Shown: piece after piece, positions 22,843 through 37,130 of the stretch
How the letters are laid out: every line of letters begins with the position of its first letter
How positions within the stretch are numbered: position 1 is the first letter of the stretch
Assembly (NCBI RefSeq): GCF_029892285.1
Contig: NZ_JARXVM010000001.1
Span: 558,001 to 622,000, forward strand
Length of the DNA stretch: 64,000 nucleotides
Source of the DNA: Rhizobium sp. SG_E_25_P2
GTDB taxonomy: Bacteria; Pseudomonadota; Alphaproteobacteria; Rhizobiales; Rhizobiaceae
Direction: 5' to 3'
Program-made: the position numbers and the translations under genes
Notes under the pieces: generated by a model
Told to the model about the DNA's origin: nothing
What the model saw: only the letters and a program-made list of their open reading frames with translations
Databases searched by the model: none

Positions 22843-23739
22843 ATGCCAAGCGTCAATTTGAAGCTGTTGCAAACATTTCTTCTTGCGGCGGAATCCGGGA
22901 GCTTTCGCAAGGCCGCCGAAGAAAGCAACCGATCGCCCTCCGCAGTCAGCATGCAAATCAAGGATCTTGAGGAACAGATCGGCATCAGCCTGTTCACGCG
23001 CACGCCGCAGCGGGTCAATCTCACCAATGAAGGCCAGGTGTTGTTCGAAGAGATCGGGCGCGCCATGGGCGATGTGCAGGCCAGCCTGGACCGGCTGACG
23101 GAACTGGCGGCGCGCCGCAAGGGAAAGATCCAGATCGCCTGCGCCCCGACCCTCGCCTCGAGCCGGCTCGGCGATATCCTGGCGACGTTCAAGCTTCGTT
23201 ATCCGCGCAGCGTCGTCGAGGTGCAGGAGACGCCGCCGCAGGCCGCCCTGATCCTGCTGCAACAGCAGGAGGTCGAGTTCTATATCGGCCCAGAGGTGCC
23301 GAACCTCAACGAATTCCAGTTCGAATCGATCATCGACGATCCGCTCGTCGCCTGCATTCCCGAAGAATTGTTCAATGGCGAAAAGGCGGTCCGGCTGGAA
23401 GACTTGGGGCAATTCCCCTTGATCATGCTCAATCGCAAGACTGCGGTCCGGGCGCTTGTGGACCGGCTTACGCGTGAGGCGGGCATCGAACTCAAGGTCC
23501 AGTACGAGGTGGAGAGCGCCCAGACTGCCGTGGCGCTCGCCTCGTCGGGACTCGGCATCTCCATTGTGCCCAGCATCGCGCTCGGGGCGAAGATCGATCG
23601 CCGCATCCGCGTCGCGCCGCTCGACAACCCCAATGCGCATCGTGCGGTCGGCATCATCACCGCGCGCGGCTACGTGCAGCAACGCTATGCCGAGCAGTTG
23701 ATCGCGCTGATCCGCACCAATCTGCGCGGCGAAGGCTGA
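22843..23739 (+). CDS. LysR-family transcriptional regulator
   Basis: A 298-residue LysR protein. The N-terminal helix-turn-helix holds FRKAAEESNRSPSAVSMQIKDLE (ends: FRKAAEE, MQIKDLE) and is followed by a periplasmic-binding-like effector domain (GKIQIACAPTLASSRLGDIL). Its stop codon abuts the stop of the convergent aldehyde dehydrogenase gene. It could control the sugar ABC operon upstream or the aldehyde dehydrogenase/SDR genes downstream; the sequence does not decide. Confidence 0.85.
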   Translation: MPSVNLKLLQTFLLAAESGSFRKAAEESNRSPSAVSMQIKDLEEQIGISLFTRTPQRVNLTNEGQVLFEEIGRAMGDVQASLDRLTELAARRKGKIQIACAPTLASSRLGDILATFKLRYPRSVVEVQETPPQAALILLQQQEVEFYIGPEVPNLNEFQFESIIDDPLVACIPEELFNGEKAVRLEDLGQFPLIMLNRKTAVRALVDRLTREAGIELKVQYEVESAQTAVALASSGLGISIVPSIALGAKIDRRIRVAPLDNPNAHRAVGIITARGYVQQRYAEQLIALIRTNLRGEG

Positions 23740-25236
23740 TCAGTCTGTCTGGATCCAGATCGCCTTGGTTTCGAGATATTCATACAGATGTTCGGCGCCG
23801 CCTTCGCGTCCATAGCCCGACATCTTCATCCCGCCGAAGGGCACGGCCGGATCGATTGCGTGATACATGTTCACCCATACCGATCCCGCCTTTATGCGTC
23901 GGGTCAGCTTGTGTGCGAGACCGAGATTCTGCGTGAAGACGCCTGCGGCCAGGCCATAGGGGCTAGCATTGGCGCGGTCGACCACTTCGTCGATGGTATC
24001 GAACGGCATTGCGGAAATGACCGGACCAAAAATCTCCTCGCGCGCGATTCGCATGTCGTCCTTCACGCCGCCGAAGATTGTCGGCGTGATGAAATTGCCT
24101 TTGTCATAGGGCGCGCCCAACAGTCGTGATCCCCCTGTGATCAGCTCGGCGCCTTCGCTTTGCCCCGAGGCGATGAAGCCTTCCACGACCTTCGCCTGTC
24201 GAGGCGAGATGAGGGGGCCGAGATCGGTGTCAGGCTCGATTCCATGGCCGAGCCGCAGCCCGCGCGCGAAATCCGCGAGTTTAGCGACAAATTCGTCATG
24301 GATCTCGCGGGCCACGAACAGCCGCGAGCCGGCGATGCAGATCTGACCGGAATGCGCAAAGACGCTCATCGCGGCAATCGGCACGGCGCGGTCGATATCG
24401 GCGTCGCGGCAGACGATGACGGGGGATTTGCCGCCGAGTTCGAGCGAGACGCGCTTGAGATTGGCGATACCTGCGCGAGCGATGGCCTGGCCTGTCGCAG
24501 TCGAGCCCGTAAAGACGATCTTGTCGACATCTGGGTGTTCAGCGAGCCGCGCTCCGGCCACCGCGCCCTTGCCGGTGACAATATTGACGACTCCATCGGG
24601 CAAGCCGGCGTCCTGCATGAGCTTGGCGATCAGCAGCGGCGTCAGGGGCGCGTCTTCGGACGGTTTCAGCACCACTGTGCAGCCCGTCGCCAGGGCCGGA
24701 GCGATTTTCCAGATCGAGGCTGCGGTCGGGGCGTTCCAGGGAATGATCGCGCCGACGACGCCGATCGGCTCCTTGCGGGTGAAAGTCACGATCTCGCCGG
24801 GAATGGAGTTTTCGATGACCTCGCCATGCAGCGCCGTCGCCATGCCCGCATAGTAGCGCAGCATGCCGACAACGCGGCGTTTGTTAGCCAGGGTGCGGGT
24901 GATCGGCATGCCCATATTGAGCGTGTCGGACACGCAGAGGCGCTCCCAATTCGCCTCGAAGAGATCGGCGATCCTCAGGAGAAGCGCCTGGCGCTCATAG
25001 GGCGAAAAACGCGACCAGGGTCCGTCGAAGGCGCGGCGGGCTGCGGCGACAGCGAGATCGACATCCGCCGCCGAGGACAGGGGCACCGTCGCCAAGACGG
25101 CGCCGGTTGCGGGATCATGGCTCTCGCTGACCTCACCGGTCACAGACGCAACCCACTGGCCGCCGATAAACATCGGCCGGAAGCCGCCATCATAAAGTTC
25201 CGCCGCCATTTTCCTGGCGTCGAAATTGATCGTCAT
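23740..25236 (-). CDS. NAD(P)-dependent aldehyde dehydrogenase
   Basis: A 498-residue ALDH-superfamily enzyme. It has the segment IPWNAPTAASIWKIAPALATG (ends: IPWNAPTA, PALATG), the general-base Glu in LELGGKSP, and the catalytic Cys in SGQICIAGSRLFV. The start at 25236 is chosen because GGGAGGAG lies just upstream. It is divergent from an SDR gene across a 146-base region with a perfect inverted repeat. The substrate is unknown; the family resembles betaine- and phenylacetaldehyde-type ALDHs. It could also supply a missing semialdehyde step of another pathway here. Confidence 0.88.
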   Translation of the reverse strand: MTINFDARKMAAELYDGGFRPMFIGGQWVASVTGEVSESHDPATGAVLATVPLSSAADVDLAVAAARRAFDGPWSRFSPYERQALLLRIADLFEANWERLCVSDTLNMGMPITRTLANKRRVVGMLRYYAGMATALHGEVIENSIPGEIVTFTRKEPIGVVGAIIPWNAPTAASIWKIAPALATGCTVVLKPSEDAPLTPLLIAKLMQDAGLPDGVVNIVTGKGAVAGARLAEHPDVDKIVFTGSTATGQAIARAGIANLKRVSLELGGKSPVIVCRDADIDRAVPIAAMSVFAHSGQICIAGSRLFVAREIHDEFVAKLADFARGLRLGHGIEPDTDLGPLISPRQAKVVEGFIASGQSEGAELITGGSRLLGAPYDKGNFITPTIFGGVKDDMRIAREEIFGPVISAMPFDTIDEVVDRANASPYGLAAGVFTQNLGLAHKLTRRIKAGSVWVNMYHAIDPAVPFGGMKMSGYGREGGAEHLYEYLETKAIWIQTD

Positions 25237-25348
25237 GTCGGCTCCTCCCAGATTCTCATTGGCGCGATATTCACCATCGGCGTCGGTGGACACAAATAAA
25301 GAAAGCTAAAAGGGCGTTCAGATAATCCGACTGTGAAATCCGCTCGAC

Positions 25349-25368
25349 TTGTCCGATGTTGCGGACAA
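25349..25368. promoter_or_regulatory. Perfect inverted repeat operator candidate
   Basis: TTGTCCG-N6-CGGACAA is a perfect 7-bp inverted repeat. It ends one base before the GGGAGG ribosome site of the SDR gene at 25383, in the divergent region with the aldehyde dehydrogenase. A repressor bound here would block the SDR transcript. The cognate regulator is unknown. Confidence 0.5.
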
Positions 25369-25382
25369 AGGGAGGAACATCC

Positions 25383-26129
25383 ATGCGTCTTGCAGGGAAA
25401 GTGGCCATCGTCACCGGTGGCGGATCGGGTTTCGGCGAGGGAATCGTCCGAAAATTCGTGGAAGAAGGTGCGCGCGTCGTGCTGATGGACCGTGACATCG
25501 CCGCTGCCGAACGGGTTGCGGGCGATCACAAGGGTCTGGCGGCGCCCATCTCCGGCGACGTGTCGTCGATGGACGACTTCCATGCGGCGCGCGACCATGC
25601 GATCGAAACATTCGGCGGTTTGCATATCCTCGTCAACAATGCCGGCATTGGCCAAGCTCCCATGCCGATGGAAGACATGGACGAGGCGCTGTTTGAGCGG
25701 CTGTTCAACGTCAATATCCGTTCGATCTATAATGGCGCCCGTGCGGTGCTGCCGCATTTCAAGGCGCAGAAGCAGGGCGCGATCCTCAATGTCGCCTCGA
25801 CCGGAGGCGTTTCGCCGCGACCCAACCTCACCTGGTACAACGCCTCAAAGGGCTGGGGCATCGCCGCGACCAAGGGCATGGCGGTGGAGCTTGCGCCGTT
25901 CGGCATACGGGTCAACGCCATCAATCCGGTGGCCGGGGAAACGCCGTTGCTGTCGACCTTTATCGGCGGCGACAGCGACGAAATCCGCGCCCGCGTCGTT
26001 TCCACCATCCCGATCGGACGGCTTTCGACGCCCGCCGACATGGGCAACGCCGCGGCCTTTCTCTGCTCGGACGAGGCCAGCATGATCACGGGCGTCGATC
26101 TTCTCGTCGATGGCGGCAAATGTATCTGA
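25383..26129 (+). CDS. SDR-family oxidoreductase
   Basis: A 248-residue short-chain dehydrogenase. It has the cofactor motif TGGGSGFGEGIV, NNAG at about 87, catalytic YNASKG, and the C-terminal TGVDLLVDGGKCI. The Asp at the end of the second strand (LMDRD) suggests NAD preference. The ATG at 25383 has GGGAGG upstream. It is followed after 10 bases by the decarboxylating dehydrogenase gene, so the two are an operon. The substrate is not known. Confidence 0.87.
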   Translation: MRLAGKVAIVTGGGSGFGEGIVRKFVEEGARVVLMDRDIAAAERVAGDHKGLAAPISGDVSSMDDFHAARDHAIETFGGLHILVNNAGIGQAPMPMEDMDEALFERLFNVNIRSIYNGARAVLPHFKAQKQGAILNVASTGGVSPRPNLTWYNASKGWGIAATKGMAVELAPFGIRVNAINPVAGETPLLSTFIGGDSDEIRARVVSTIPIGRLSTPADMGNAAAFLCSDEASMITGVDLLVDGGKCI

Positions 26130-26139
26130 AGGGCCTGCG

Positions 26140-27246
26140 ATGAAGGATATTTATGAAATCGCCGTCGTGCATGGCGACGGAATCGGGCCTGAAGTCTGCG
26201 CGGCAGCCATTGAGGTCGTGCGGGCGGCGCTCGGCAACCAGTCGCCGCTGAATTTCCGCGAATATCCCGCCGGCGCGGAGCATTTCCTCATGACCGGCGA
26301 GAGCTTTCCAGATCCTACTTTCGCCGCCTGCCGCGATGCGGACGCGATCCTCCACGGCGCCGGCGGCATTCCCGGCGTCGTGCATCCGGACGGCACCGAG
26401 GCCGGCCTTGATTTCACGCTCAGGCTGCGCTTTGAACTCGATCTCTACGCCAATATCAGGCCGATCCGCCTGTTTCAGGGCGTGGAATGCCCACTGGCCG
26501 GCGTGAAAGCGGGAGACATCGATTACATCATCCTACGCGAAAACAGCGAAGGCCTCTATGCGGCGCGCGGCGCGGGCGTGCAATTGCGCGGCGAATTGGC
26601 GGTCGACACGCTGGTGCAGACCCGACGCGGCGTCGAGCGGATCGTGCGCAAAGCGTTCGAACTCGCTCGGCAATCGAACGGCGCGCCGAAAGACGGCGTC
26701 AAGCGCGTCACCTGCTGTGACAAGGCCAATGTGCTCCGAAGCTATGCCTTCTTCCGATCGGTGTTCGACGCGGTCGCGCCCGACTATCCCGATATCGAGA
26801 CCGAATATGTGCTGATCGACGCCATGACGATGCATCTCGTGCTGCGACCGCAGCATTTCAACGTCATCGTCACGGAGAATATGTTCGGCGACATCATCTC
26901 CGATCTCGGCGCGGCCACGATCGGCGGCATGGGGCTCGCGCCTTCGGCAGAGCTCGGCGACCGCAACGGCTTTTTCCAGGCCGCGCATGGTTCGGCGCCG
27001 GACATCGCCGGCAAGGGGATCGCCAATCCGTATGGAACGGTACTTTCGGCTGCGGCGATGCTGGATTGGCTCGGAGAAAAGAATGGCGACGAACGTCTTG
27101 CCGGCGCGGCGCGCGACATCCGCCATGTAACCAATGCCGCGATGTCGGACGGGCTGCTTTCCGCCGATCTCAAAGGTGCGTGGGGAACCGCCGGCATCAC
27201 CAAATCGCTCTGCGAGCGTTTGGGACAACTTCGTGTGACGATATAG
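26140..27246 (+). CDS. Isocitrate/isopropylmalate-dehydrogenase-family beta-decarboxylating dehydrogenase
   Basis: A 368-residue enzyme. It has the family start VVHGDGIGPEV, the substrate tyrosine in RENSEGLYAARG, the catalytic lysine in CDKANVL, the metal-binding aspartates in LIDAMTMHLV and DIISDLGAATIGG, and the NAD site HGSAPDIAGKGIANP. Such enzymes oxidise and decarboxylate 2-hydroxy acids such as isopropylmalate, tartrate or D-malate. No leuCD partner is present and the neighbours are catabolic, so a tartrate- or malate-like substrate is more likely than leucine synthesis. The upstream reading to 26110 is not needed; the chosen ATG lies 10 bases after the SDR stop. Confidence 0.82.
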   Translation: MKDIYEIAVVHGDGIGPEVCAAAIEVVRAALGNQSPLNFREYPAGAEHFLMTGESFPDPTFAACRDADAILHGAGGIPGVVHPDGTEAGLDFTLRLRFELDLYANIRPIRLFQGVECPLAGVKAGDIDYIILRENSEGLYAARGAGVQLRGELAVDTLVQTRRGVERIVRKAFELARQSNGAPKDGVKRVTCCDKANVLRSYAFFRSVFDAVAPDYPDIETEYVLIDAMTMHLVLRPQHFNVIVTENMFGDIISDLGAATIGGMGLAPSAELGDRNGFFQAAHGSAPDIAGKGIANPYGTVLSAAAMLDWLGEKNGDERLAGAARDIRHVTNAAMSDGLLSADLKGAWGTAGITKSLCERLGQLRVTI

Positions 27247-27325: not shown

Positions 27326-28402
27326 TTAGCTCCTGAAAGCGTGCGCCTCGGCTGGACTGAAGCTGAGATGCACCTCTGCGCCGTGACCAAGGCCTTCAAG
27401 CATCGGATGTCCAAAAGGCAACCGAACCGACAGCGGCTCTCCGGAACCGATATCGACCAGAAGATGCGTGTTGTTGCCGAGAAAGGTCAGATCGCGAACC
27501 TGGCCGGAAAGCGCGTCGCGGCTTGTCCCGCGCGCAATGTCGATACGCTCCGGCCGTAGCAGGAGCGATGCTTTCTGGCCCGTTCCCTGACTGTGGAGCG
27601 GCACGCCCGACACCATGACGCCGCCCGGAAGCGCCAAGGTGCTTTTGCCGCCGTCAACAGCGACGATATCGACCTCGATGAAATTGGAATCGCCGACGAA
27701 ACCCGCCACGAACCGGGTCGACGGATCGGCATAGAGCTGCTGGCCGGTGCCGATCTGGTCGATCTTGCCATGGCTGAACACGGCGATACGGTCGGACAGG
27801 CGCAATGCCTCTTCCTGGTCATGGGTGACATAGAGAATGGTGACGCCGGTTTCCTGATGGATGCGGCGGATTTCGAACTGGATTTCCTCGCGCAGCTTCT
27901 TGTCGAGCGCCGATAGCGGCTCGTCCATCAGCAGCACCGGCGGCTCATAGACCAGAGCCCGGGCCAGCGCGACGCGCTGCTGCTGGCCGCCCGACATCAG
28001 CGCGGGCTTGCGATCTTCGAACCCTTCGAGGCGCACGAGACGCAGCGCCTCCTTCACCCGGCGTTCGACATCGGCCTTCGGCAGCCGCCGGATACGCAAG
28101 GGAAAAGCGACATTCTCGCCCACCGTCAGATGCGGAAACAGCGTGTAGCGCTGGAAAACCATGCCGATATTGCGCTTGTGCGACGGCGTGTCGAGCAGCG
28201 TCTTGCCGTTGAGCAGGATATCGCCCTGGGTCGGATCCTGAAAGCCGGCGAGGATGTAGAGCGTCGTCGACTTCCCCGAACCCGACGGGCCAAGAAAGGT
28301 CATGAACTCGCCCTGGCGCACATCGAGCGTCACGTCCTTGACGGCGGTGACGGGACCGTAATCCTTGCGGATGCCGCGGATTTGGAGAAAGGGTGAAGTC
28401 AT
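27326..28402 (-). CDS. PotA-like ABC transporter ATP-binding protein
   Basis: A 358-residue ATPase. It has Walker [10 protein letters not shown], the signature LMSGGQQQR, Walker [13 protein letters not shown], the switch His in YVTHDQEE, and a C-terminal TOBE domain (about 280-355). It energises the polyamine/opine-class importer made with the three genes before it. It overlaps the permease gene by 4 bases and is the last gene of the ten-gene operon. A spermidine/putrescine assignment would be by class only. Confidence 0.9.
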
Positions 28403-29199
28403 GATTTCCGTCCCTTGCGGACCACAGCCGCGATGATCATCAAAAGCATGGTGAACAGGATGAGAAGCGTGGAGGCCGCCGCGATCACCGGCGTCAGATC
28501 CTGCCTGAGCGTCGACCAGATCTTCACCGGCAGCGTCTGCAGCGTCGGGCTCGCCATGAAGATCGCCAGCACCACCTCATCCCAGGAGGCGAGAAAAGAG
28601 AACACCGCCGCGCCGAACAGCCCATGGCTGATGGCGGGCACGGTGACACGGAGCCGCGCTTCCCAGGGCGAGGCGCCGCAGAGAATAGCGGCGTCCTCGA
28701 TCGATTTGTCGAAACCCTCGAGCGCATTGCCGATGGAGATGATCGAAAAAGGCAAGGCGATCAGAAGATGGGCGATGATGAAGCCCAGCGTCGTGCCGGC
28801 AAGCCCGATCTTCAGGAAAAAAGCGTAAAGCGCCACCGCGAGCACCACCACCGGCAGGATCATCGGCGTGAGAAACAGCGCGCGCAGCACCTCCTTGCCG
28901 ATGAAATGCCCGCGATTGAGGCCGAGCGCGGCCAGAAACCCTGTCACCACCGAGAGCACCGTGACGATCAACGCGATCTTCAGGCTGGTAAAGGCGGAAG
29001 AGAGCCAGCGCGGATCGGCGAAGAGTTCGGCATACCAGCGTGTGGTCCAGGATGGCGGCGGAAAGATCAGCCATTGCGACGAGCCGAAGGACAGCGCGGC
29101 GATGAACACGATCGGCAGGATGAGAAACAGACACACAAGCGTGGTGACGCCGATGAGCAGCCATTTCCATGCGCCGAGTTTTTCGAAATCCAGAAGCAT
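28399..29199 (-). CDS. PotC-like ABC transporter permease
   Basis: A 266-residue membrane protein with six predicted helices and the permease-ATPase contact motif in EDAAILCGASPWEARLRVTVP (ends: EDAAILCG, RLRVTVP). The start at 29199 follows GGGGGAA; a longer upstream reading overlaps the previous permease and is rejected. It pairs with the permease at 29211-30068 to form the channel. Confidence 0.88.
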   Translation of the reverse strand: MLLDFEKLGAWKWLLIGVTTLVCLFLILPIVFIAALSFGSSQWLIFPPPSWTTRWYAELFADPRWLSSAFTSLKIALIVTVLSVVTGFLAALGLNRGHFIGKEVLRALFLTPMILPVVVLAVALYAFFLKIGLAGTTLGFIIAHLLIALPFSIISIGNALEGFDKSIEDAAILCGASPWEARLRVTVPAISHGLFGAAVFSFLASWDEVVLAIFMASPTLQTLPVKIWSTLRQDLTPVIAAASTLLILFTMLLMIIAAVVRKGRKS

Positions 29200-29210
29200 C
29201 GCGTTCCCCC

Positions 29211-30068
29211 CTAGCTCATCCGGCCAGCGCCGAAGAAGCGTAATTGCACGCCATAGAGGATCAGCGTCACCACCAGCAGCACAAAGGCGGCCGCGCCGCC
29301 CATGCCCCAATTGACCAGCGATTGGACGAATTGCGCCACCATTTCAGCCAGCATCATATTGGCCGTGCCGCCCAGTAGAGCCGGCGTGACATAATAGCCA
29401 AGCGCCATGACGAAGACCATCAGCGCGCCGGCGGCAATCCCGGGAAGCGAAAGCGGCAGAAGGATGCGGGTGAAGCATTGCCAGCTATTGGCGCCGCACA
29501 GCGCGCCGGCCCTGAGTATGGCGGGGTCGATGGACCTGATGACGCCGACCAGCGGCAGGATCACGAAAGGCAGCATGATATAGGTCATGCCGATGGTGAC
29601 GCCGACGAGATTGTTGACCAGCGCCAGGGGCTGGTCGATCAGGCCGAGCGCTTTCAGCGTCTTGTTGATGACGCCGGTGCGCTGCAACAGCACCATCCAG
29701 GCATAGGTTCGGGCGAGAAGATTGGTCCACATCGACAGGATGATGATGGCGAAGACCAGCCGCGACCAGCGCTCCGGCATGACCGCGAGCGCCCAGGCGA
29801 CAGGATAGCCGATGATCACGGAGAGAACGGTCACCACACCGGCAACGAGAAAGGTGTTGGCGAAAATCCGCACATAGGTGCCCGATCCGATCAGTTCGGC
29901 ATAATTCTGCAGGCCGAATTGCGGCTCGGTGAGGCTGCGCAGCATCAGGCCCGTGACAGGCGTCACGAAGAAGAGAACAATGAGAATGAGCGCCGGCGCG
30001 ACATAGGCGAGAGCGCTTCCGCGCCCTGCCGGCCCCCGTCTCAGCGCGACTGTGGCGCTCGTGGTCAT
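29211..30068 (-). CDS. PotB-like ABC transporter permease
   Basis: A 285-residue membrane protein with six predicted helices and the coupling motif around RAGALCGANSWQCFTRILLP. The first hydrophobic helix (LAYVAPALILIVLFFVTPV, 19 residues) is typical of this group. It is encoded between the binding-protein gene and its partner permease, after an intercistronic stem-loop at 30093-30120. Confidence 0.88.
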   Translation of the reverse strand: MTTSATVALRRGPAGRGSALAYVAPALILIVLFFVTPVTGLMLRSLTEPQFGLQNYAELIGSGTYVRIFANTFLVAGVVTVLSVIIGYPVAWALAVMPERWSRLVFAIIILSMWTNLLARTYAWMVLLQRTGVINKTLKALGLIDQPLALVNNLVGVTIGMTYIMLPFVILPLVGVIRSIDPAILRAGALCGANSWQCFTRILLPLSLPGIAAGALMVFVMALGYYVTPALLGGTANMMLAEMVAQFVQSLVNWGMGGAAAFVLLVVTLILYGVQLRFFGAGRMS

Positions 30069-30092
30069 GGCAATGATTCCGGTGAAGAATGA

Positions 30093-30120
30093 GCCGGCCG
30101 AACACTCAAGATCGGCCGGC
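30093..30120 (-). other. Intercistronic stem-loop after the PotD-like gene
   Basis: GCCGGCCGA (30093-30101) and TCGGCCGGC (30112-30120) make a perfect 9-bp stem with a 10-base loop between the binding-protein stop and the permease start. Structures here are known in other transporter operons to protect the binding-protein mRNA and lower permease expression. Confidence 0.6.
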
Positions 30121-30135
30121 GATACGGTTTAACGT

Positions 30136-31146
30136 TTACTTCGCCTGCCAGTCGTACCAGCGCTTGCCGATCTCATCGCGATGTTCGGCCCAGTAATCCA
30201 TGTCGGCATTGACCTGACTGTCGGCCTGCATGTCAGGCAGCGTCTTGCGGATCGCTTCTTCCATCAACAGGTTGGAGTCGAGATTGGTCGGCGCATAGCC
30301 GGTCGCCATGGCGAATTGCGCCTGCTGCATGTCGGCGGTCGCATGCGCGATGAACTTCATCGCCGCGTCCTTGTTTTTGGCGCCCTTCGGCACGACCAGC
30401 GAGTCGGCGGCCGTGATGTTCTGGTCCCAGGAGGTCTCGACCGTCACGCCGGTGGCGGCGAGCGCGGTCAGGCGGCCATTCCAGAACGAGCCGAACGGCG
30501 CTTCGCCGGAGGCGAGCAACTGCTGGGAGGCGGCGCCGCCGTCCCACCAGACGATATCGGCCTTGATCGTGTCGAGCTTCTTGAAGGCGCGATCGAGATC
30601 GAGCGGATAGAGCTTTTCAGCCGATACGCCGTCGGCGAGCAGCGCAGCCTCGATCACGCCCGGAGCCGACCATTTGTAGAAGGCGCGCTTGCCGGGGAAT
30701 TTGGCGGTGTCGAAGAGATCGGCCCAGGTCTTCGGGCAATTGCCGGCGATGTCCTTGTTGCAGCCGATGACGAAGGAATAATAGAAGCTACCGACCGAAT
30801 AGTCAGTGACGAAACGCGGATCGAGCTTGGACTTGTCGATCACCGAGAAGTCGAGCTTTTCGAGAAGGCCGGCCTTGCCGGCCTGCACGGCGTAATCGCC
30901 TTCGACATCGACCACGTCCCAGGTCACATTGCCGGCTTCGACCATGGCTTTGATCTTGCCGTAGTCGGTCGGGCCGTCCTGGATGACATTGATCTTGGTG
31001 TTGGCGGTGAAACTATCGGCCCAGCTGGCCTTCTGCGCATCCTGCGTGGTGCCGCCCCAGCTTGCGAACACCATGTCCTCAGCTTGCGCTGCGCCGGTGA
31101 AGCCGACCACAGTCATGAGAGCGGCGATTGCGAATGATTTTTTCAT
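30136..31146 (-). CDS. PotD-like periplasmic substrate-binding protein
   Basis: A 336-residue exported protein. The signal peptide MKKSFAIAALMTVVGFTGAAQA is cut after AQA, and a type II binding fold follows (MVFASWGGTTQDAQKASW, then GDYAVQAGKAG and YYSFVIGCNKD). The group covers spermidine, putrescine and many other amine-like ligands. The start at 31146 is chosen over 31176 because the signal peptide begins there. It lies 30 bases after the NIPSNAP gene in the same operon, so its ligand is probably the substrate of the monooxygenase pathway. Confidence 0.9.
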   Translation of the reverse strand: MKKSFAIAALMTVVGFTGAAQAEDMVFASWGGTTQDAQKASWADSFTANTKINVIQDGPTDYGKIKAMVEAGNVTWDVVDVEGDYAVQAGKAGLLEKLDFSVIDKSKLDPRFVTDYSVGSFYYSFVIGCNKDIAGNCPKTWADLFDTAKFPGKRAFYKWSAPGVIEAALLADGVSAEKLYPLDLDRAFKKLDTIKADIVWWDGGAASQQLLASGEAPFGSFWNGRLTALAATGVTVETSWDQNITAADSLVVPKGAKNKDAAMKFIAHATADMQQAQFAMATGYAPTNLDSNLLMEEAIRKTLPDMQADSQVNADMDYWAEHRDEIGKRWYDWQAK

Positions 31147-31176
31147 GTTCCCGTTCCTTGTTTTGATTATTGGCAT

Positions 31177-31515
31177 TCACGTAGTTTGGATAGGCGCACT
31201 CCCGCCGAGCGGTGAAAACGCCGCCGGCTTCATGATCTTGTTTTCCGCGACCTCGATCAGGTCGCGGATCTTTGGCAGAAAGGCGCGCCAGGCGGGGTCC
31301 GCCATCAGGCGGGCGCGGCGCGCGTCACGGTCATCAAGGCTGTCAAAAGCCCAGATATGAACGATCTCGTTGATGGGGCCGATTTCCGAGAAGAAGTAGC
31401 CGACCAGTTGGCCCAGATGTTTCTTCTGGATGGCGATGCCCTCTTCGCCCACGACTTTGAGATAGTCGGGGATCGCGCCATTCTTCAGCCTGTAGGTGCG
31501 GATCTCGTAATACAT
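31177..31515 (-). CDS. NIPSNAP-family protein
   Basis: A 112-residue protein with a ferredoxin-like NIPSNAP domain: YYEIRTYRLKNGAIPDYLK at the start, then LVGYFFSEIGPINEIVHIWAF (ends: LVGYFFSE, IVHIWAF) and DPAWRAFLPKI. Bacterial members are often found in catabolic clusters and some are isomerases or small oxygenase-like helpers. It is 4 bases from the aldehyde dehydrogenase gene and therefore in the same operon. Its reaction is unknown. Confidence 0.82.
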   Translation of the reverse strand: MYYEIRTYRLKNGAIPDYLKVVGEEGIAIQKKHLGQLVGYFFSEIGPINEIVHIWAFDSLDDRDARRARLMADPAWRAFLPKIRDLIEVAENKIMKPAAFSPLGGSAPIQTT

Positions 31516-31519
31516 GGCG

Positions 31520-32983
31520 TCACCGCATCACGAAGGGATCGGGGATGGGATCGTCCGAGGTCCTCACCCAGACCGTCTTGGTGCGGGTGTAATCAAGCGC
31601 TGCGGCGAGCCCGCCCTCGCGGCCCTGGCCGGACTGGCCGAAGCCGCCGAACGGCGCGATCGGCGAGACCGCGCGATAGGTGTTCACCCAGACCACGCCG
31701 GCGCGGATGCGCTTGATCATCCGGTGCGCGCGGGTGAGGTTCTGGGTGAAGACGCCGGAGGCGAGCCCGAACTGCGTGTCATTGGCAAGCCTGACAGCCT
31801 CCTCCTCCGTCTGGAAGGACAGGACCGACAACACCGGGCCGAACAGTTCCGTCTCCACAGAAGGCGAGGTGACGTGATCGCAATCAAGCACAGTTGGCGC
31901 GTAATAGAAGCCCTTGTCGCCGAGCTTGCGGCCGCCAGTCACCAGCTTTGCCCCGGCGGCGATCGAGGCGTCGATCGTCTTCTCGATCAGCGCGCGCTGG
32001 CGCTCGGTGCAGAGCGGGCCGACCTCGGTCGCCATATCCAGCGGTTCGCCGATGCGGATCGCCTCGGCGCGGGATTTGAGGATGGCCAGGAACCGGTCCT
32101 TCACCGACGCTTCGATGATCAACCGCGAGCCGGCCACGCAGGACTGGCCGGTGGCGGCGAAGATGCCGGCGATCTGGGCGTTGGCGGCGCTTTCGAGATC
32201 GGCGTCGGCGAACACCACGAAGGGCGATTTGCCGCCGAGTTCGAGCGAGGTGCTGGCGAGATTTTCGGCCGAATTCCGCACGACGGCCGCAGCTGTGCCG
32301 GGACCGCCGGTGAAGGCGATATGCGCCACTTTCGGATGCCGGGTCAGCGCGCTGCCGCAGGACGGACCGAAACCGGTGATGACATTGACGACGCCAGCCG
32401 GAAAGCCAGCCTCATGGATCAGCCGCGCAAATTCCAGAAGCGGCGCCGGGCCGTCTTCGGAGGCTTTCACCACGACCGTGCAACCGGCGGCGAGCGCCGG
32501 GCCGAGCTTGACGGCGGAAAGAAACAGCTGGCTGTTCCAGGGAACGATGGCCGCGACCACGCCAATTGGCTCGCGCCTCAGCCAGACATCCATATCGGGC
32601 TTGTCGATCGACAGATAGGCGCCCTCGATCTTATCGGCGAGACCGGCGTAATAGCGGTAATAGTCTGCGACATAAGCGATCTGGGAGGATGTTTCGCGTA
32701 TGATCTTGCCGGTGTCGCGGGTTTCCAGCTCAGCTAGCCGTGCGGCGTTGGCGGCGACGAGATCGGCGAGCTTGTAGAGAAGCTTGCCGCGCTGGGTCGC
32801 GGTCATGTTCGCCCAGGGGCCAGACCAGAGCGCCGCCTCGGCAGCATTGACAGCCCTGTCGACCTCTGCTTTGCGGGCCTCGGGCATATCGGCCCAGGCC
32901 TCGCCTGTCGCGGGGTCGATGCTGGCAAAGCGTCCGCCGCCATCCTCGAATTGCCCATTGATATAGAGCTGAAAACGCTGCAT
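31520..32983 (-). CDS. Aldehyde dehydrogenase of the monooxygenase operon
   Basis: A 487-residue ALDH. It has VPWNSQLFLSAVKLGPALAAG (ends: VPWNSQLF, GPALAAG), the Glu base in LELGGKSP, and the catalytic Cys in TGQSCVAGSRLII. It is 10 bases from the luciferase-like monooxygenase gene. It would oxidise a semialdehyde produced after ring opening or oxidative cleavage, taking the place that malonic semialdehyde reductase has in the Rut pathway. A role as the 2-oxoglutarate semialdehyde dehydrogenase of the nearby uronate pathway cannot be excluded but the operon argues against it. Confidence 0.88.
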   Translation of the reverse strand: MQRFQLYINGQFEDGGGRFASIDPATGEAWADMPEARKAEVDRAVNAAEAALWSGPWANMTATQRGKLLYKLADLVAANAARLAELETRDTGKIIRETSSQIAYVADYYRYYAGLADKIEGAYLSIDKPDMDVWLRREPIGVVAAIVPWNSQLFLSAVKLGPALAAGCTVVVKASEDGPAPLLEFARLIHEAGFPAGVVNVITGFGPSCGSALTRHPKVAHIAFTGGPGTAAAVVRNSAENLASTSLELGGKSPFVVFADADLESAANAQIAGIFAATGQSCVAGSRLIIEASVKDRFLAILKSRAEAIRIGEPLDMATEVGPLCTERQRALIEKTIDASIAAGAKLVTGGRKLGDKGFYYAPTVLDCDHVTSPSVETELFGPVLSVLSFQTEEEAVRLANDTQFGLASGVFTQNLTRAHRMIKRIRAGVVWVNTYRAVSPIAPFGGFGQSGQGREGGLAAALDYTRTKTVWVRTSDDPIPDPFVMR

Positions 32984-32993
32984 CGGGCTCTCC

Positions 32994-34031
32994 TCAGCCG
33001 AAGGCCGGCATGACCTCGGCGATGAAGCGTTCGAGCGACGCCTTCTTGCGCTCGAAGCTCATGCCGGTGTCGATCCAGAAGGAATATTCGTCATAACCGA
33101 GCGCTTCATAGGCCTTGAGACGGCCAATGACCTCGTCGGACGTGCCGATCGGCATATTCGCCCGCATGACATCCGGGCCGAGCATGGCGTTGGCGGCGAT
33201 ATCTTCCTCGCTCAGCCGTTCGATCAGGCCCTGATGGATCGGGCGCTCATTTTTGAACCAGGCGAAGAAGTAATTGTAGTAGACGCTGACTTCCTTCATC
33301 GCCTGCTGCACATCCGCATCGTCGGAGCCGACATAGGTGTGGAGCAGCAGCATGATCTTCGGCTTGGCGATATCGGGATTTTTCTTGCAGGCGGCGTTGA
33401 AGCGGCCCATCAGGCTTTCGATCTCGGCGTCGCCGTTCCACAGCGGCGTCACCTGGACATTGCAGCCTTGGGAGACGGCAAATTCGTGGCTGTTGGGATC
33501 GCGCGCCGCCACCCAGATCGGGGGATGCGGCGTCTGGACCGGCTTTGGCGCGGAGGTCGTGGAGGGGAACTTCCAGAACTCTCCGTCATGGGCGTAATCG
33601 CCGGCCCAGACGCCTTTCAGCGCCGGGATCAGTTCGCGCATGCGCAGGCCTGCGCCCCACGCGTCCAGCCCCGGATGAAGGCGTTCATATTCAAAGCCAT
33701 AGGCTCCTCGCGCGATGCCGACATCGAGACGTCCGCCTGTCACGATGTCGGTCATCGCCGCTTCGCCCGCCAGTTTGATCGGGTGCCAGAAGGGCGCGAT
33801 CACCGTACCCGTGCCGAGCCGGACATTCTTGGTGCGGCGGGCGAGATCGGCAATATTGATGAAGGGATTGGGGGCGATGGTGAAATCCATGCCGTGGTGC
33901 TCGCCCGTCCAGATGGCGTGCATGCCGCCGCGATCGGCGATCTCGCACAATTGGACGAACTCCTCATAGAGCTCCTGATGGGTCTGGCTGGCGTCCAGCC
34001 GCTCCATGTGAACGAAGAGCGAGAATTTCAT
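32994..34031 (-). CDS. LLM-class (bacterial luciferase-like) flavin-dependent monooxygenase
   Basis: A 345-residue TIM-barrel flavin enzyme. It has the family landmarks GMHAIWTGEHHGMDFT, VRLGTGTVIAPFWHPIKLA (19 residues) and GRLDVGIARGAYGFEY. Such enzymes use reduced FMN supplied by a separate reductase, which is encoded 3 bases upstream. RutA, the pyrimidine ring opener, belongs to the same superfamily, but the Rut-specific partners RutB and RutE are not recognisable here. The substrate is unknown; an amine or N-heterocycle fits with the PotD-like binding protein. Confidence 0.85.
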   Translation of the reverse strand: MKFSLFVHMERLDASQTHQELYEEFVQLCEIADRGGMHAIWTGEHHGMDFTIAPNPFINIADLARRTKNVRLGTGTVIAPFWHPIKLAGEAAMTDIVTGGRLDVGIARGAYGFEYERLHPGLDAWGAGLRMRELIPALKGVWAGDYAHDGEFWKFPSTTSAPKPVQTPHPPIWVAARDPNSHEFAVSQGCNVQVTPLWNGDAEIESLMGRFNAACKKNPDIAKPKIMLLLHTYVGSDDADVQQAMKEVSVYYNYFFAWFKNERPIHQGLIERLSEEDIAANAMLGPDVMRANMPIGTSDEVIGRLKAYEALGYDEYSFWIDTGMSFERKKASLERFIAEVMPAFG

Positions 34032-34034
34032 GCG

Positions 34035-34958
34035 TCACCCTCTGACGGCCTGGGCATGGACCCGGCCCTTTTCTTGATTTCCAACATAGACGCCGAAATT
34101 GCCGAGGCTGGCTTCGGCGGCGTAACGCTTGAGCACATCCCGCGTCGCGGCGTCCACGATCCTCTCCATCGGCAGCACGTCGATCGGATAGAGCGCGCCC
34201 GACGCGACAGGCCCGTCGCCGAGACCGGCGCGATAGACCACATGCTGACGCCGGGTCTTGGTGTCTTCATACACCGAATAAAGAAGACCCGGCTGCACCG
34301 CGACACCCGAGAAAGAAGCGACCGCATCGGTCAGCGCATCGAGCCCTTCGCCACCCGCAAGCTCAACGCCCGGCAGACCGAGCGAACCGTCGGAAGTTAC
34401 CACCAGAAACACCTGACCATCGCGTTCGGCGACAGCGCTCAGATGCTGCGGCATGTCCTGGCCGGCCAGAAGAGCCTTGTCGGCGAGAACGGGCGAGAAA
34501 TAGCCGCCGCGCGCATAGCCGAGACCGGCCTGACCGGAATTCTCAAAGGCTTCGATTCGGCCCAGAAGAATGACGTGATCGCCGGCATCGATCACCTGAT
34601 GCATGGCGCAGTCGAACCAGGCGGCAACGTCGGAGAACACCGGCGAACCATGCGGCCCCTTGCGCCAGTCGACGGCGGCGAAGCGATCGTCAACCGGGCG
34701 GGCAAACGTGTTGGACACGTCCTTCTGGCCTTCTGCGAGAATATTGACGGCGAAACCGGAGGCGTTGGTCATGGTCGCAAAATTGCGCGACGTCTTGGCG
34801 AGACAGACCAGCAGCAGCGGCGGATCGAGTGAAACGCTGGTGAAGGAATTGGCGGTGAAGCCGATCGGCGCCCCAGTGGCGTCATGGGTGGTGACGACTG
34901 TCACGCCGGTCAGGAAGGCTCCAAAGGCGTCTCGCAGGGCTTTCGGTTCAAGCGTCAT
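34035..34958 (-). CDS. Flavin reductase fused to a degenerate Nudix-like domain
   Basis: A 307-residue two-part protein. Residues 1-155 are an FMN-binding flavin reductase domain (LTGVTVVTTHDATG, GFTANSFTSVSLDPPL, GDHVILLGRIEAF), which would feed reduced FMN to the monooxygenase. Residues about 165-290 look like a Nudix fold (LGLPGVELAGGEGLDALTDA), but the catalytic RE and EE pairs of the Nudix box read TD and SF, so it is probably a binding domain. The gene overlaps the hydrolase gene by 11 bases. The Nudix reading is my own pattern match. Confidence 0.78.
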   Translation of the reverse strand: MTLEPKALRDAFGAFLTGVTVVTTHDATGAPIGFTANSFTSVSLDPPLLLVCLAKTSRNFATMTNASGFAVNILAEGQKDVSNTFARPVDDRFAAVDWRKGPHGSPVFSDVAAWFDCAMHQVIDAGDHVILLGRIEAFENSGQAGLGYARGGYFSPVLADKALLAGQDMPQHLSAVAERDGQVFLVVTSDGSLGLPGVELAGGEGLDALTDAVASFSGVAVQPGLLYSVYEDTKTRRQHVVYRAGLGDGPVASGALYPIDVLPMERIVDAATRDVLKRYAAEASLGNFGVYVGNQEKGRVHAQAVRG

Positions 34959-35760
34959 GGCGGGCCTCCTTCGGGGTCGATGTCATCCATTCGGTCAGCG
35001 CGGTATTCACGGCTTCCGGCGCTGTGAGGTTGACCATATGACGGTGTCCCTCGACGATCACCGCCCGGCCGTTCCGTGCGGCTACCGCCATGGCTTCGGC
35101 CATCGCAGGCGTTGAATTCAGATCGCCGTCGCCGGTCAGAAACAGCGCCGGACATGTCACCGAGGACCAGCGATCGGCATAGGTCGCATCGCCGCCGGCG
35201 AAAGCGCCATAGGCGGTGGCGTATCCCTGCTGATCGACCAATGCGAGCAAGCGCCGGGACAGGACATAGGCCTCTTCATGCTCATGCCCTTCTCCAAACC
35301 AGCGCCGCAGCGGCGCTTCGCGATCGAAAGCGCCCGTGACGATCTCCGCCGCCCGCGCCTTCACCGCATTGCGGGCCGCATCATCCCGCCTGTAGACGCC
35401 GTTCAGAAGCGCGACCCGCGCCACCTGATCGGGCGCTTCGGCGGCGATGCCGCCCGCAATCAGAGCACCCATCGAATGACCGGCGACGCTGACCGGACCT
35501 TTGCCGAGCTCCCGCAACGCTCTCGCGAACCAGGCGACAAACCCTTCGAGCGACGCGCCTGCAGGAAGCGGATCGCTTTCCCCATGGCCCGGCAGATCCA
35601 CCGCGATGATCTCGAAGCGCTTCGACAGCGCCTCGATCTGCGGCGTCCAGGCTTCGAGCCGCATACCCACGCCATGGATCAGAACGAGCGGATCGCCCGC
35701 CCCCGTCACGACATAGGCCGCGCCCGACGGGGTCTTAGACCGCTGCGGGATTGGCGACAT
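34948..35760 (-). CDS. Alpha/beta-fold hydrolase
   Basis: A 270-residue hydrolase. It has the oxyanion segment LIHGVGM, the nucleophile elbow GHSMGALIAGG, an acid in FLTGDGDLNSTP, and the catalytic His in EGHRHMVNLTAPE. The start at 35760 gives a normal N-terminus; longer readings run antisense. It overlaps the PF06684 gene by 26 bases. In the operon it stands where RutD stands in pyrimidine degradation: hydrolysis of an amide, carbamate or enol intermediate. The substrate is unknown. Confidence 0.85.
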   Translation of the reverse strand: MSPIPQRSKTPSGAAYVVTGAGDPLVLIHGVGMRLEAWTPQIEALSKRFEIIAVDLPGHGESDPLPAGASLEGFVAWFARALRELGKGPVSVAGHSMGALIAGGIAAEAPDQVARVALLNGVYRRDDAARNAVKARAAEIVTGAFDREAPLRRWFGEGHEHEEAYVLSRRLLALVDQQGYATAYGAFAGGDATYADRWSSVTCPALFLTGDGDLNSTPAMAEAMAVAARNGRAVIVEGHRHMVNLTAPEAVNTALTEWMTSTPKEARHDA

Positions 35761-36337
35761 CGTGGCCGAGCTCCTTGAGATCTTCATAGCGATTGCCGAT
35801 GCGGTGATGCGGACGCCCGCCAATCGACGCGCCGAGCGCGATGACGATCTCGTCCGCCGCAGGCGCATCCGGGATGGCGCATTGAATGGTAAGATAATGC
35901 GAGCGGCGACCCTCATCATTCTTGTCCATCAACGGGATCATGATCGGTGCGTTGGCCGGCCCGCGCGTGTTGCAGAAGGCGAGATAGGATTTCGCCCCAA
36001 CCGCCTGGCGATAATGATTGCCGAAGCGCAGCGTATGGATCAGCGCCGAGGCATGCTCGATTTCGCCGTCGAGGCCCACGACTGCGCTCTTGCCATAACC
36101 TTCGACCGCCTCGCCCGAGCCGGTGACATCGAGGATCATCTTGGTGAGAAGTGCGCCAAGGACCGGGGCCGCAGCATGAATCTCAGGCTTGAGATCATCG
36201 ACAAAGCCGCGTCCGGCCCAGGGATTTTTGATCACCGCCATGGCCGCGATCATCTTCAGCGGAACGGCGGCTTCCTTGCCGCCTTCGATGAGCGTGTTTT
36301 CCACATGAAGAAGAGTTTTGCGTATCACGGGAACCAA
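35735..36337 (-). CDS. PF06684 (DUF1185, 'amino acid synthesis') family protein
   Basis: A 200-residue protein with the family hallmarks VIRKTLLHVENTLIEGG at the start, KNPWAGRGFVDDL at about 36-48, and HYRQAVGAKSYLAFCNTRG near the middle. The family has a chorismate-mutase/YjgF-like fold known from structures and no proved reaction. YjgF-type RutC acts in the Rut pathway, so the parallel is suggestive. The gene seems to start with TTG at 36337, because GGAGG lies 5 bases before it and no ATG fits. It is the first gene of the operon and overlaps the hydrolase gene by 26 bases. Confidence 0.82.
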   Translation of the reverse strand: MVPVIRKTLLHVENTLIEGGKEAAVPLKMIAAMAVIKNPWAGRGFVDDLKPEIHAAAPVLGALLTKMILDVTGSGEAVEGYGKSAVVGLDGEIEHASALIHTLRFGNHYRQAVGAKSYLAFCNTRGPANAPIMIPLMDKNDEGRRSHYLTIQCAIPDAPAADEIVIALGASIGGRPHHRIGNRYEDLKELGHDVANPAAV

Positions 36338-36380: not shown

Positions 36381-36434
36381 TAAGACGACGTGTCAAGAGC
36401 TTGCGGGAAACAAAATTTGCGGCTAAACGGGATC

Positions 36435-37130
36435 ATGACCACACAGGACGCTCATCTCGCCGATCTCCGGATCGATACGCCCCCCGCGACCCTGCGCGAA
36501 ATCGCGCTCGAGCGCATGCGCCGCGCCATCATTGCCGGGCTATTCCAGCCTGGTCAGCGACTGGTGGAGCGGGCGCTGTGCGATCAGCTTGGCGTGTCGA
36601 GATCGGTTATCCGCGAAGTGATCCGCCATCTCGAATCCGAAGGGCTTGTCGAGAGCATCGCCAAGCAGGGGCCCATCGTCGCCCGGATCAGTTGGGATGA
36701 CGCCCGGCAGATCTACGAGATCCGCTCGGCGCTGGAATCGACTGCGGTGGCGGATTGCGCGCGTCGCGCCGGCGCCAAGGTCAAGGCCCGGCTGGGGGCA
36801 GTGCTCAGCGAACTCGACCGGACATCGAAAAAAAATTCTCCGCCGGCCATCCTCGACGCCACCCATGAATTCTACAAGATCATTTTCGAGACCAGCGGCC
36901 ACACGATCGCCTGGGAAATCGTCAACCGTCTGAACAGCCGCATTTCGCGGCTGCGCGTGATGACGCTATCGACCGCAAACCGCACGACATCGGGTCCGGC
37001 GAGAATGCGGGAAATCTACGCCGCCATCGAGAGAAACGATCCGGACGCCGCCGCCCTCGCCTGCCGCGCCCATGTGGAGGAAGCGTCACGCATCGCCGAA
37101 ACCCTGCTCGCCAATGAAGCGGATGGCTGA
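36435..37130 (+). CDS. GntR-family regulator, FadR/FCD subfamily
   Basis: A 231-residue regulator. The winged helix is at about 18-75 (IIAGLFQPGQRLVERALCDQ, then LGVSRSVIREVIRHLE), and the FCD effector domain follows, with conserved Asp/His metal-site residues (DATHEFYKII). It is transcribed away from the ten-gene monooxygenase operon, and the palindrome TGGTATACCA lies between them. It most likely represses that operon until a pathway compound binds. The ATG at 36435 has only a weak ribosome site. Confidence 0.86.
   Translation: MTTQDAHLADLRIDTPPATLREIALERMRRAIIAGLFQPGQRLVERALCDQLGVSRSVIREVIRHLESEGLVESIAKQGPIVARISWDDARQIYEIRSALESTAVADCARRAGAKVKARLGAVLSELDRTSKKNSPPAILDATHEFYKIIFETSGHTIAWEIVNRLNSRISRLRVMTLSTANRTTSGPARMREIYAAIERNDPDAAALACRAHVEEASRIAETLLANEADG

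Follow-up and report, generated by a model that had tools for sequence, protein, structure and literature searches.

A conserved ten-gene operon of Rhizobium sp. SG_E_25_P2 that probably serves trigonelline import and degradation

Trigonelline degradation and the ten-gene operon

Trigonelline (N-methylnicotinate) is a pyridine betaine that is common in plants, and it can be degraded by the Tgn enzymes of Acinetobacter baylyi ADP1. The chemistry is said to have been worked out by Perchat et al. 2018, with an aldehyde dehydrogenase (TgnC) and a hydrolase (TgnD) that reportedly lead to CO2, formate, methylamine and succinate semialdehyde. TgnB is listed in passages of PMC11354265 as a flavin-dependent trigonelline monooxygenase within a network of luciferase-like monooxygenases (LLMs), and TgnF is given as a PF06684 homologue in an excerpt of PMC7913881. 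The operon described here lies at positions 27326-36337, on the minus strand, of a 64,000-nucleotide stretch of Rhizobium sp. SG_E_25_P2 (the window; contig NZ_JARXVM010000001.1, positions 558,001 to 622,000). By sequence comparison its ten genes would form a trigonelline import and degradation operon with Tgn-type enzymes, an assignment to which we give a probability of about 0.85. The original prediction had held that no characterised pathway has this gene set. As far as can be told such a pathway does exist, as trigonelline degradation has the same enzymes including a PF06684 protein, and the operon is probably a well-conserved example of an already known pathway type rather than an unknown one. 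The ten genes and the regulator gene beside them are as follows, with ATP-binding cassette abbreviated to ABC and gamma-aminobutyric acid to GABA.

36390-37130, plus strand: GntR/FCD-type regulator, divergent from the operon (open reading frame listing)
35735-36337, minus strand: PF06684 protein, TgnF-like (PF06684, 232.6 bits)
34948-35760, minus strand: alpha/beta hydrolase, TgnD-like (Abhydrolase/PcaD-like; GHSMG motif)
34035-34958, minus strand: flavin reductase with C-terminal extension, putative reductase component (PF01613)
32994-34031, minus strand: LLM (luciferase-like) oxygenase, putative TgnB-like ring-cleaving component (PF00296)
31520-32983, minus strand: aldehyde dehydrogenase, TgnC-like (PF00171, 537 bits; ELGGK and GQSC motifs)
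31177-31515, minus strand: NIPSNAP-family protein (PF07978)
30136-31176, minus strand: periplasmic binding protein, Atu4243 relative, proposed trigonelline/GABA binder (79% identity to PDB 4euo/4eq7)
29211-30068, minus strand: ABC permease, PotB-like (PF00528; PotB model 175.7 bits, below its cut-off of 348)
28399-29199, minus strand: ABC permease, PotC-like (PF00528; PotC model 142.3 bits, below its cut-off of 326)
27326-28402, minus strand: ABC transporter ATPase with TOBE domain (PF00005 and PF08402)

The open reading frame (ORF) listing and the Pfam matches (PF06684, alpha/beta hydrolase, Flavin_Reduct, Bac_luciferase, Aldedh, NIPSNAP, SBP_bac_8, two BPD_transp_1, and ABC_tran with TOBE) confirm the ten minus-strand genes with the families that had been claimed for them. 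Two gene starts probably need to be moved. The hydrolase ORF as listed (start 35919) overlaps the PF06684 gene by 185 bases; the in-frame start at 35760 (270 amino acids) is the probable one and puts the hydrolase near the end of the PF06684 gene, and the hydrolase on a Sinorhizobium meliloti plasmid likewise begins just past PF06684. In the case of the second permease, 29199 (266 amino acids) is probably the start rather than 29310. The divergent GntR/FCD-type gene would, from its position, be the regulator of the operon.

The likeness to the Tgn type lies in the adjoining flavin reductase and LLM oxygenase genes, in an aldehyde dehydrogenase and an alpha/beta hydrolase with active-site motifs, and in the PF06684 protein. 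The window differs in having a PotD-type ABC importer, where Acinetobacter junii has an NCS1-type symporter, in its additional NIPSNAP gene, and in having no succinate-semialdehyde dehydrogenase (SSADH) in the operon. The PF06684 protein is 75% identical to that of A. junii and 84% to that of S. meliloti 1021 pSymA, the LLM 72% and 79%, respectively, and the aldehyde dehydrogenase 73% to its A. junii counterpart. The predicted model of the LLM has a luciferase-type fold (predicted local distance difference test score, pLDDT, 81.7), and the Asp and His regions of the hydrolase align across the window, A. junii, S. meliloti and Agrobacterium fabrum C58. The S. meliloti 1021 orthologue of the flavin reductase is identical to PDB 3rh7 over 297 amino acids, and the closest PDB entry to the NIPSNAP protein is 2ap6, hypothetical protein Atu4242.

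The proposed mechanism follows the Tgn chemistry, with the substrate and every reaction step predicted by homology, from gene content, kinship, motifs and linkage that are observed. Trigonelline would be taken up by the ABC importer (27326-31176), and the flavin reductase would give reduced flavin to the LLM oxygenase, which would open the pyridinium ring by direct C-C cleavage with no prior hydroxylation. The aldehyde dehydrogenase would convert the ring-opened aldehyde or lactone product to an N-methylformamido-methylene-succinate, and the alpha/beta hydrolase would split the latter into CO2, formate, methylamine and succinate semialdehyde. The last of these would be turned into succinate by an SSADH acting in trans, aided by the PF06684 protein, which by its homology to TgnF is a putative accessory to this oxidation.

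A close parallel can be found on a plasmid of A. junii ZM06, where a divergent GntR gene is followed by the PF06684, hydrolase, flavin reductase, LLM and aldehyde dehydrogenase genes in the window order. Identities between the two clusters are 51% for GntR, 75% for PF06684, 53% for the hydrolase, 45% for the flavin reductase, 72% for the LLM and 73% for the aldehyde dehydrogenase. Downstream there follow an NCS1-type symporter, a 412-amino-acid ORF that has no Pfam match, an SSADH that passes its cut-off (694.7 bits against 646.35) and a CMD protein, while upstream there are FolD and sarcosine-oxidase-type SoxB-SoxD-SoxA-SoxG genes (N-methyl oxidation). Neighbours of these two kinds, for SSADH and for N-methyl oxidation, are consistent with a pathway that yields succinate semialdehyde and methylamine. 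Elsewhere in the window genome two SSADH genes exceed the cut-off, and there are also two SoxD-type loci and one glutamine-synthetase-III-type gene over cut-off, so that downstream capacity is plausible by homology. Among 369 genomes drawn from the class to which Castellaniella belongs, 9 have the LLM at E<=1e-50, with none above 72% identity to that of A. junii.

Conservation of the gene set and its plasmid copies

Conservation was assessed in the best 80 of at least 582 LLM relatives, which were obtained by scanning named genome contigs with the window LLM; a gene was counted as linked if it lay on the LLM strand at a distance of at most 9 kb. All ten genes occur together in 65 of these 80 loci. 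The aldehyde dehydrogenase is linked to the LLM in every locus, the PF06684, hydrolase, flavin reductase and binding-protein genes in 79 each, and each of the three remaining importer genes (two permeases, one ATPase) in 77. In the neighbourhood comparison that had been suggested at the outset, the PF06684, flavin reductase and binding-protein genes are each linked to the LLM in 79 of 80 loci. NIPSNAP is linked in 67 loci and was not found in the other 13, because of which it is probably dispensable for the pathway chemistry; that it may help with a lactone or aldehyde intermediate is a guess. Loci short of more than NIPSNAP include two on contigs of 5.7 and 3.4 kb (L016 and L044), and one (L076) has no importer, its only ABC genes being 33-41% matches on the opposite strand. 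A relative of the GntR gene lies no further than 6.5 kb from the LLM start in 65/80 loci (28 divergent with >60% identity, 36 of lower identity on the LLM strand and 1 divergent of lower identity) and none in 15. In 23 loci the ATPase gene is directly followed, at about 6.7-6.8 kb past the LLM start, by an SSADH relative of the same orientation (at least 59% identity to that of S. meliloti); four further loci have an SSADH match, three of them at 33-35% only and one upstream on the opposite strand.

An even draw of 398 genomes from the phylum gave a second sample, in which the LLM was counted at E<=1e-50. The LLM is present in 23 genomes and PF06684 in 59; in each of the 23 the two lie no more than 20 kb apart (20 within 6 kb and 3 at 15-18 kb). 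Co-occurrence at the genome level has a Fisher p of ~1e-21, with shared ancestry ignored. The ten-gene cluster is a conserved functional unit whose linkage goes far beyond chance. The same counts led us to reject PF06684 as a marker unique to the pathway, and the family has further roles besides it. For example, contig C4 of the window genome carries two tandem PF06684 genes (130994-132099) that adjoin genes of the hydantoinase A/B type; an amidohydrolase and a [2Fe-2S] protein are encoded close by.

Copies on well-studied rhizobial plasmids can be related to earlier genetics. On pSymA of S. meliloti 1021, positions 429468-441268 hold the GntR gene, all ten genes and an SSADH, the aligned stretches being free of stops (432982-434016 for the LLM, 435846-436868 for the binding protein), and the cluster lies 12 kb from nifH (453568). 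In the S. meliloti strain 4H41 there is one LLM of the window kind (82%), and the next match is at 30%. Wild-type S. meliloti grows on trigonelline and a strain without pSymA does not (from passages of PMC4207669). Going by its title, the paper of Goldmann et al. 1991 locates genes that are indispensable for trigonelline catabolism within the pSym symbiotic region. In addition, pSymA carries at about 411122-411811, upstream of the complete cluster, a stretch that resembles a flavin reductase gene (53%); its alignment contains one stop, and it is perhaps the remnant of a second copy.

The second copy of interest is on pRL10 of Rhizobium leguminosarum/johnstonii 3841 (247288-256436), with all ten genes in the same order. 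We take this copy to be the gts (GABA transport) operon. White et al. 2009 are said to have described GABA transport by this operon in R. leguminosarum, along with aromatic inhibitors of uptake, and to have suggested the breakdown of a more complex precursor. Compared with the window, pRL10 adds an SSADH as an eleventh gene, and its GntR gene is on the same strand and less similar (46%). An SSADH is annotated beside the cluster in S. meliloti as well as R. johnstonii plasmids. In S. meliloti, potABCD2 (SMa0799-803) is listed as a putrescine uptake system that is essential in symbiosis by TnSeq (PMC7268258, in part). It is probably the pSymA copy of the window importer, judging from locus-tag order against coordinates; in the passages of PMC7268258 concerned it bears the putrescine name and the catabolic genes go unmentioned.

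The nearest named relatives of the window genome are Rhizobiaceae. In the LLM tree (49 rows, midpoint root), 35 rows form a single clade (support 100/99), which includes the enzymes of the window, S. meliloti, R. johnstonii, A. junii, Leisingera and Paraburkholderia. Outside it stand a five-member clade from f44 and f51 genomes and the type found on pAt of A. fabrum C58. The Leisingera plasmid, from a relative of Ruegeria pomeroyi, carries the enzyme core, and R. pomeroyi is reported in parts of PMC8269262 to grow better on trigonelline than on homarine, a result with a later correction that the homarine standard was contaminated. The C58 pAt locus (218275-225065) is a sister cluster with an LLM of 40% identity, and has genes for a flavin reductase, aldehyde dehydrogenase, LLM, alpha/beta hydrolase, CMD protein, NIPSNAP, PF06684 and a GhrA-type reductase; a ProX-type importer is encoded close to them. 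This sister cluster is a candidate for use of a further pyridinium compound.

The importer and its GABA-sensor relatives

The importer is of the Atu4243/Gts type, in which a binding protein of the Atu4243 subfamily has PotB-, PotC- and PotA-like partners. For the binding protein the PDB match is 4eq7/4euo (E 3.6e-169), and a Foldseek search gave 79% identity to the 'Structure of Atu4243-GABA sensor' (4euo, 313 columns) and 63-64% to iGABASnFR (6dgv, 9d57). The model (pLDDT 67.9) was used for PDB titles and identities, not for pocket geometry, and its fold adds little beyond sequence. The surprise is that, by sequence, the importer belongs to a family whose proteins are known as GABA sensors and serve as such in neuroscience. 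GABA is the ligand of these relatives, whereas that of the window protein is predicted. The earlier suggestion of an amine or N-heterocycle was right as far as the binding protein points to a small amine or zwitterion.

The distribution of the subfamily can be followed in the 398 genomes, where at most five candidates at E<=1e-60 were scored per genome. Matches of at least 58% identity occur in 9 genomes, all other matches being at 41% or below, and in all nine a TgnB-like LLM lies within 9 kb (2.5-8.4 kb; hypergeometric p ~1e-12, shared ancestry ignored). The converse fails, since 14 of the 23 LLM genomes, as well as the A. junii cluster, have no binding protein at this level; the importer as an obligatory part of the pathway was rejected on that count. 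Two LLM clades occur with this subfamily. For instance, in the f44 genome G289 the binding protein differs little from the scaffold of iGABASnFR (655.6 bits across both halves), and its gene shares a 16-kb stretch with an LLM (48%), flavin-reductase-like genes, PotABC-type genes, GntR, aldehyde dehydrogenase, hydrolase, PF06684, an NCS1 symporter (55% to that of A. junii) and a CMD protein (79% to that of A. junii).

The linkage of this subfamily to a ring-cleaving LLM in nine of nine genomes leads to the hypothesis that the 'GABA' binding proteins of the Atu4243 type and the iGABASnFR scaffold serve in nature as trigonelline (pyridine-betaine) importers within Tgn-type operons, to which we would give even odds. 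GABA binding might then be caused, as part of the same proposal, by trigonelline being a flat N-methylated analogue of the cyclic GABA mimics nipecotic acid, guvacine and arecaidine. If this is true, the names given in rhizobia to the 'GABA' (gts) and 'putrescine' (potABCD2) importers are wrong, a transporter annotation that is in use in symbiosis research would be corrected, and GABA sensors built on this scaffold may respond to trigonelline. We found no paper joining the gts/Atu4243 importer names with trigonelline, weak evidence that the link is unpublished given that most subscription papers were outside the search. A seemingly unknown operon becomes a predicted, testable plant-betaine pathway. 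It connects three fields that stood apart in the literature searched: work on the breakdown of trigonelline (Tgn, pSymA), work on the GABA and putrescine importers of rhizobia, and work on fluorescent sensors for GABA.

Competing substrates and pathways

The original prediction had read the operon as a Rut-type pathway for an N-compound. What stands of it is a two-component, flavin-dependent oxidative opening of an N-heterocycle, which remains the best description; that the operon is a variant of Rut does not stand. Folds for oxygenase, flavin reductase and hydrolase are indeed common to both. The RutA model (TIGR03612, cut-off 498.3), however, finds five genome matches at E<=0.001 with the window LLM not among them, and the RutF and RutD models stay far below their cut-offs (101.2 of 254.75 bits and 57.8 of 238.5 bits, respectively). 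The Pfam matches of the ten proteins include no family of the RutB, RutC or RutE type, which we take to be isochorismatase, RidA/YjgF and nitroreductase, respectively. The Rut assignment was rejected on these grounds, and a Rut-type opening of an amide-containing N-heterocycle now seems hardly credible. True RutA genes are present elsewhere in the genome, at contig C8 13118-14182 (695 bits) and contig C9 177547-178605 (629.1 bits), and the genome may therefore hold a separate Rut pathway, perhaps twice.

A more serious alternative, improbable as we judge it, is a Tgn-like pathway with the same chemistry that acts on homarine, N-methylpyridinium, nicotinate derivatives or pyridine. An Arthrobacter pyridine pathway reportedly uses an LLM, a flavin reductase and an aldehyde dehydrogenase. 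The LLM sister clades (38-52% identity) have altered gene sets, such as that of C58 pAt with its CMD and GhrA genes and nearby ProX-type importer, from which the enzyme family probably fills more than one niche. Trigonelline is favoured over these compounds by the supported clade that the window LLM shares with the pSymA-type, pRL10, A. junii and Leisingera genes, by the SSADH and N-methyl-oxidation neighbours that fit its products, and by the need for pSymA in growth on it (PMC4207669, in part). In the case of homarine, TgnA/TgnB are argued in a passage of PMC8269262 to be unlikely to act on it.

Less probable still is that the operon serves GABA, with the Gts importer bringing in GABA, the enzymes degrading a complex GABA precursor and trigonelline being incidental. 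The R. leguminosarum copy is said to transport GABA (White et al. 2009), the identities of the binding protein to the Atu4243 sensor and iGABASnFR point the same way, and the SSADH directly past the operon in 23 of 80 loci would complete GABA catabolism. The Pfam matches of the ten operon proteins, however, show no GABA transaminase, and GABA import alone does not account for a subfamily that occurs in 9 of 398 genomes and always beside a ring-cleaving LLM.

Several points weigh against trigonelline degradation itself. The genetics tie growth on trigonelline to pSymA as a whole and not to these genes, and the standard of comparison, the A. junii plasmid cluster, is itself of predicted function and stands in for TgnA-F of ADP1. 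In that cluster no match to NIPSNAP was found. The window operon has no SSADH (TgnE), and the neighbouring aldehyde dehydrogenase gene (23740-25293) was rejected as one, with 388.4 bits against 646.35, its best model being StyD (526.4 against 850). The Sox-type genes that lie close to 5 of the 80 loci are just 33-43% like those of A. junii, and the SoxA- and SoxD-type ones among them (33-38%) give weak support, as an ordinary sarcosine oxidase would match too. The closest solved relatives of the binding protein are GABA proteins, and LLMs of the sister clades may use other compounds, so that a shift of substrate is possible. For PF06684, the TgnF-like effect failed to appear for another member, HcdD, in a 7-hydroxycoumarin study (excerpt of PMC7913881), and an earlier structure paper linked the family to amino-acid metabolism through its neighbourhood (PMC2954203, in part).

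Two neighbourhoods can be added as minor observations. Beside the operon, 23740-27246 holds the StyD/BADH-like aldehyde dehydrogenase just mentioned, an SDR-like gene and an isocitrate/isopropylmalate-type dehydrogenase, the last two named from sequence; these genes are not conserved with the cluster in the 80 loci, where the first two have 26-39% matches only and the third none. On the A. junii plasmid, positions 22909-25299 encode a 796-amino-acid fusion of DUF1989 and glycine-cleavage-T-type parts, beside an ammonium transporter and the trigonelline-type cluster.

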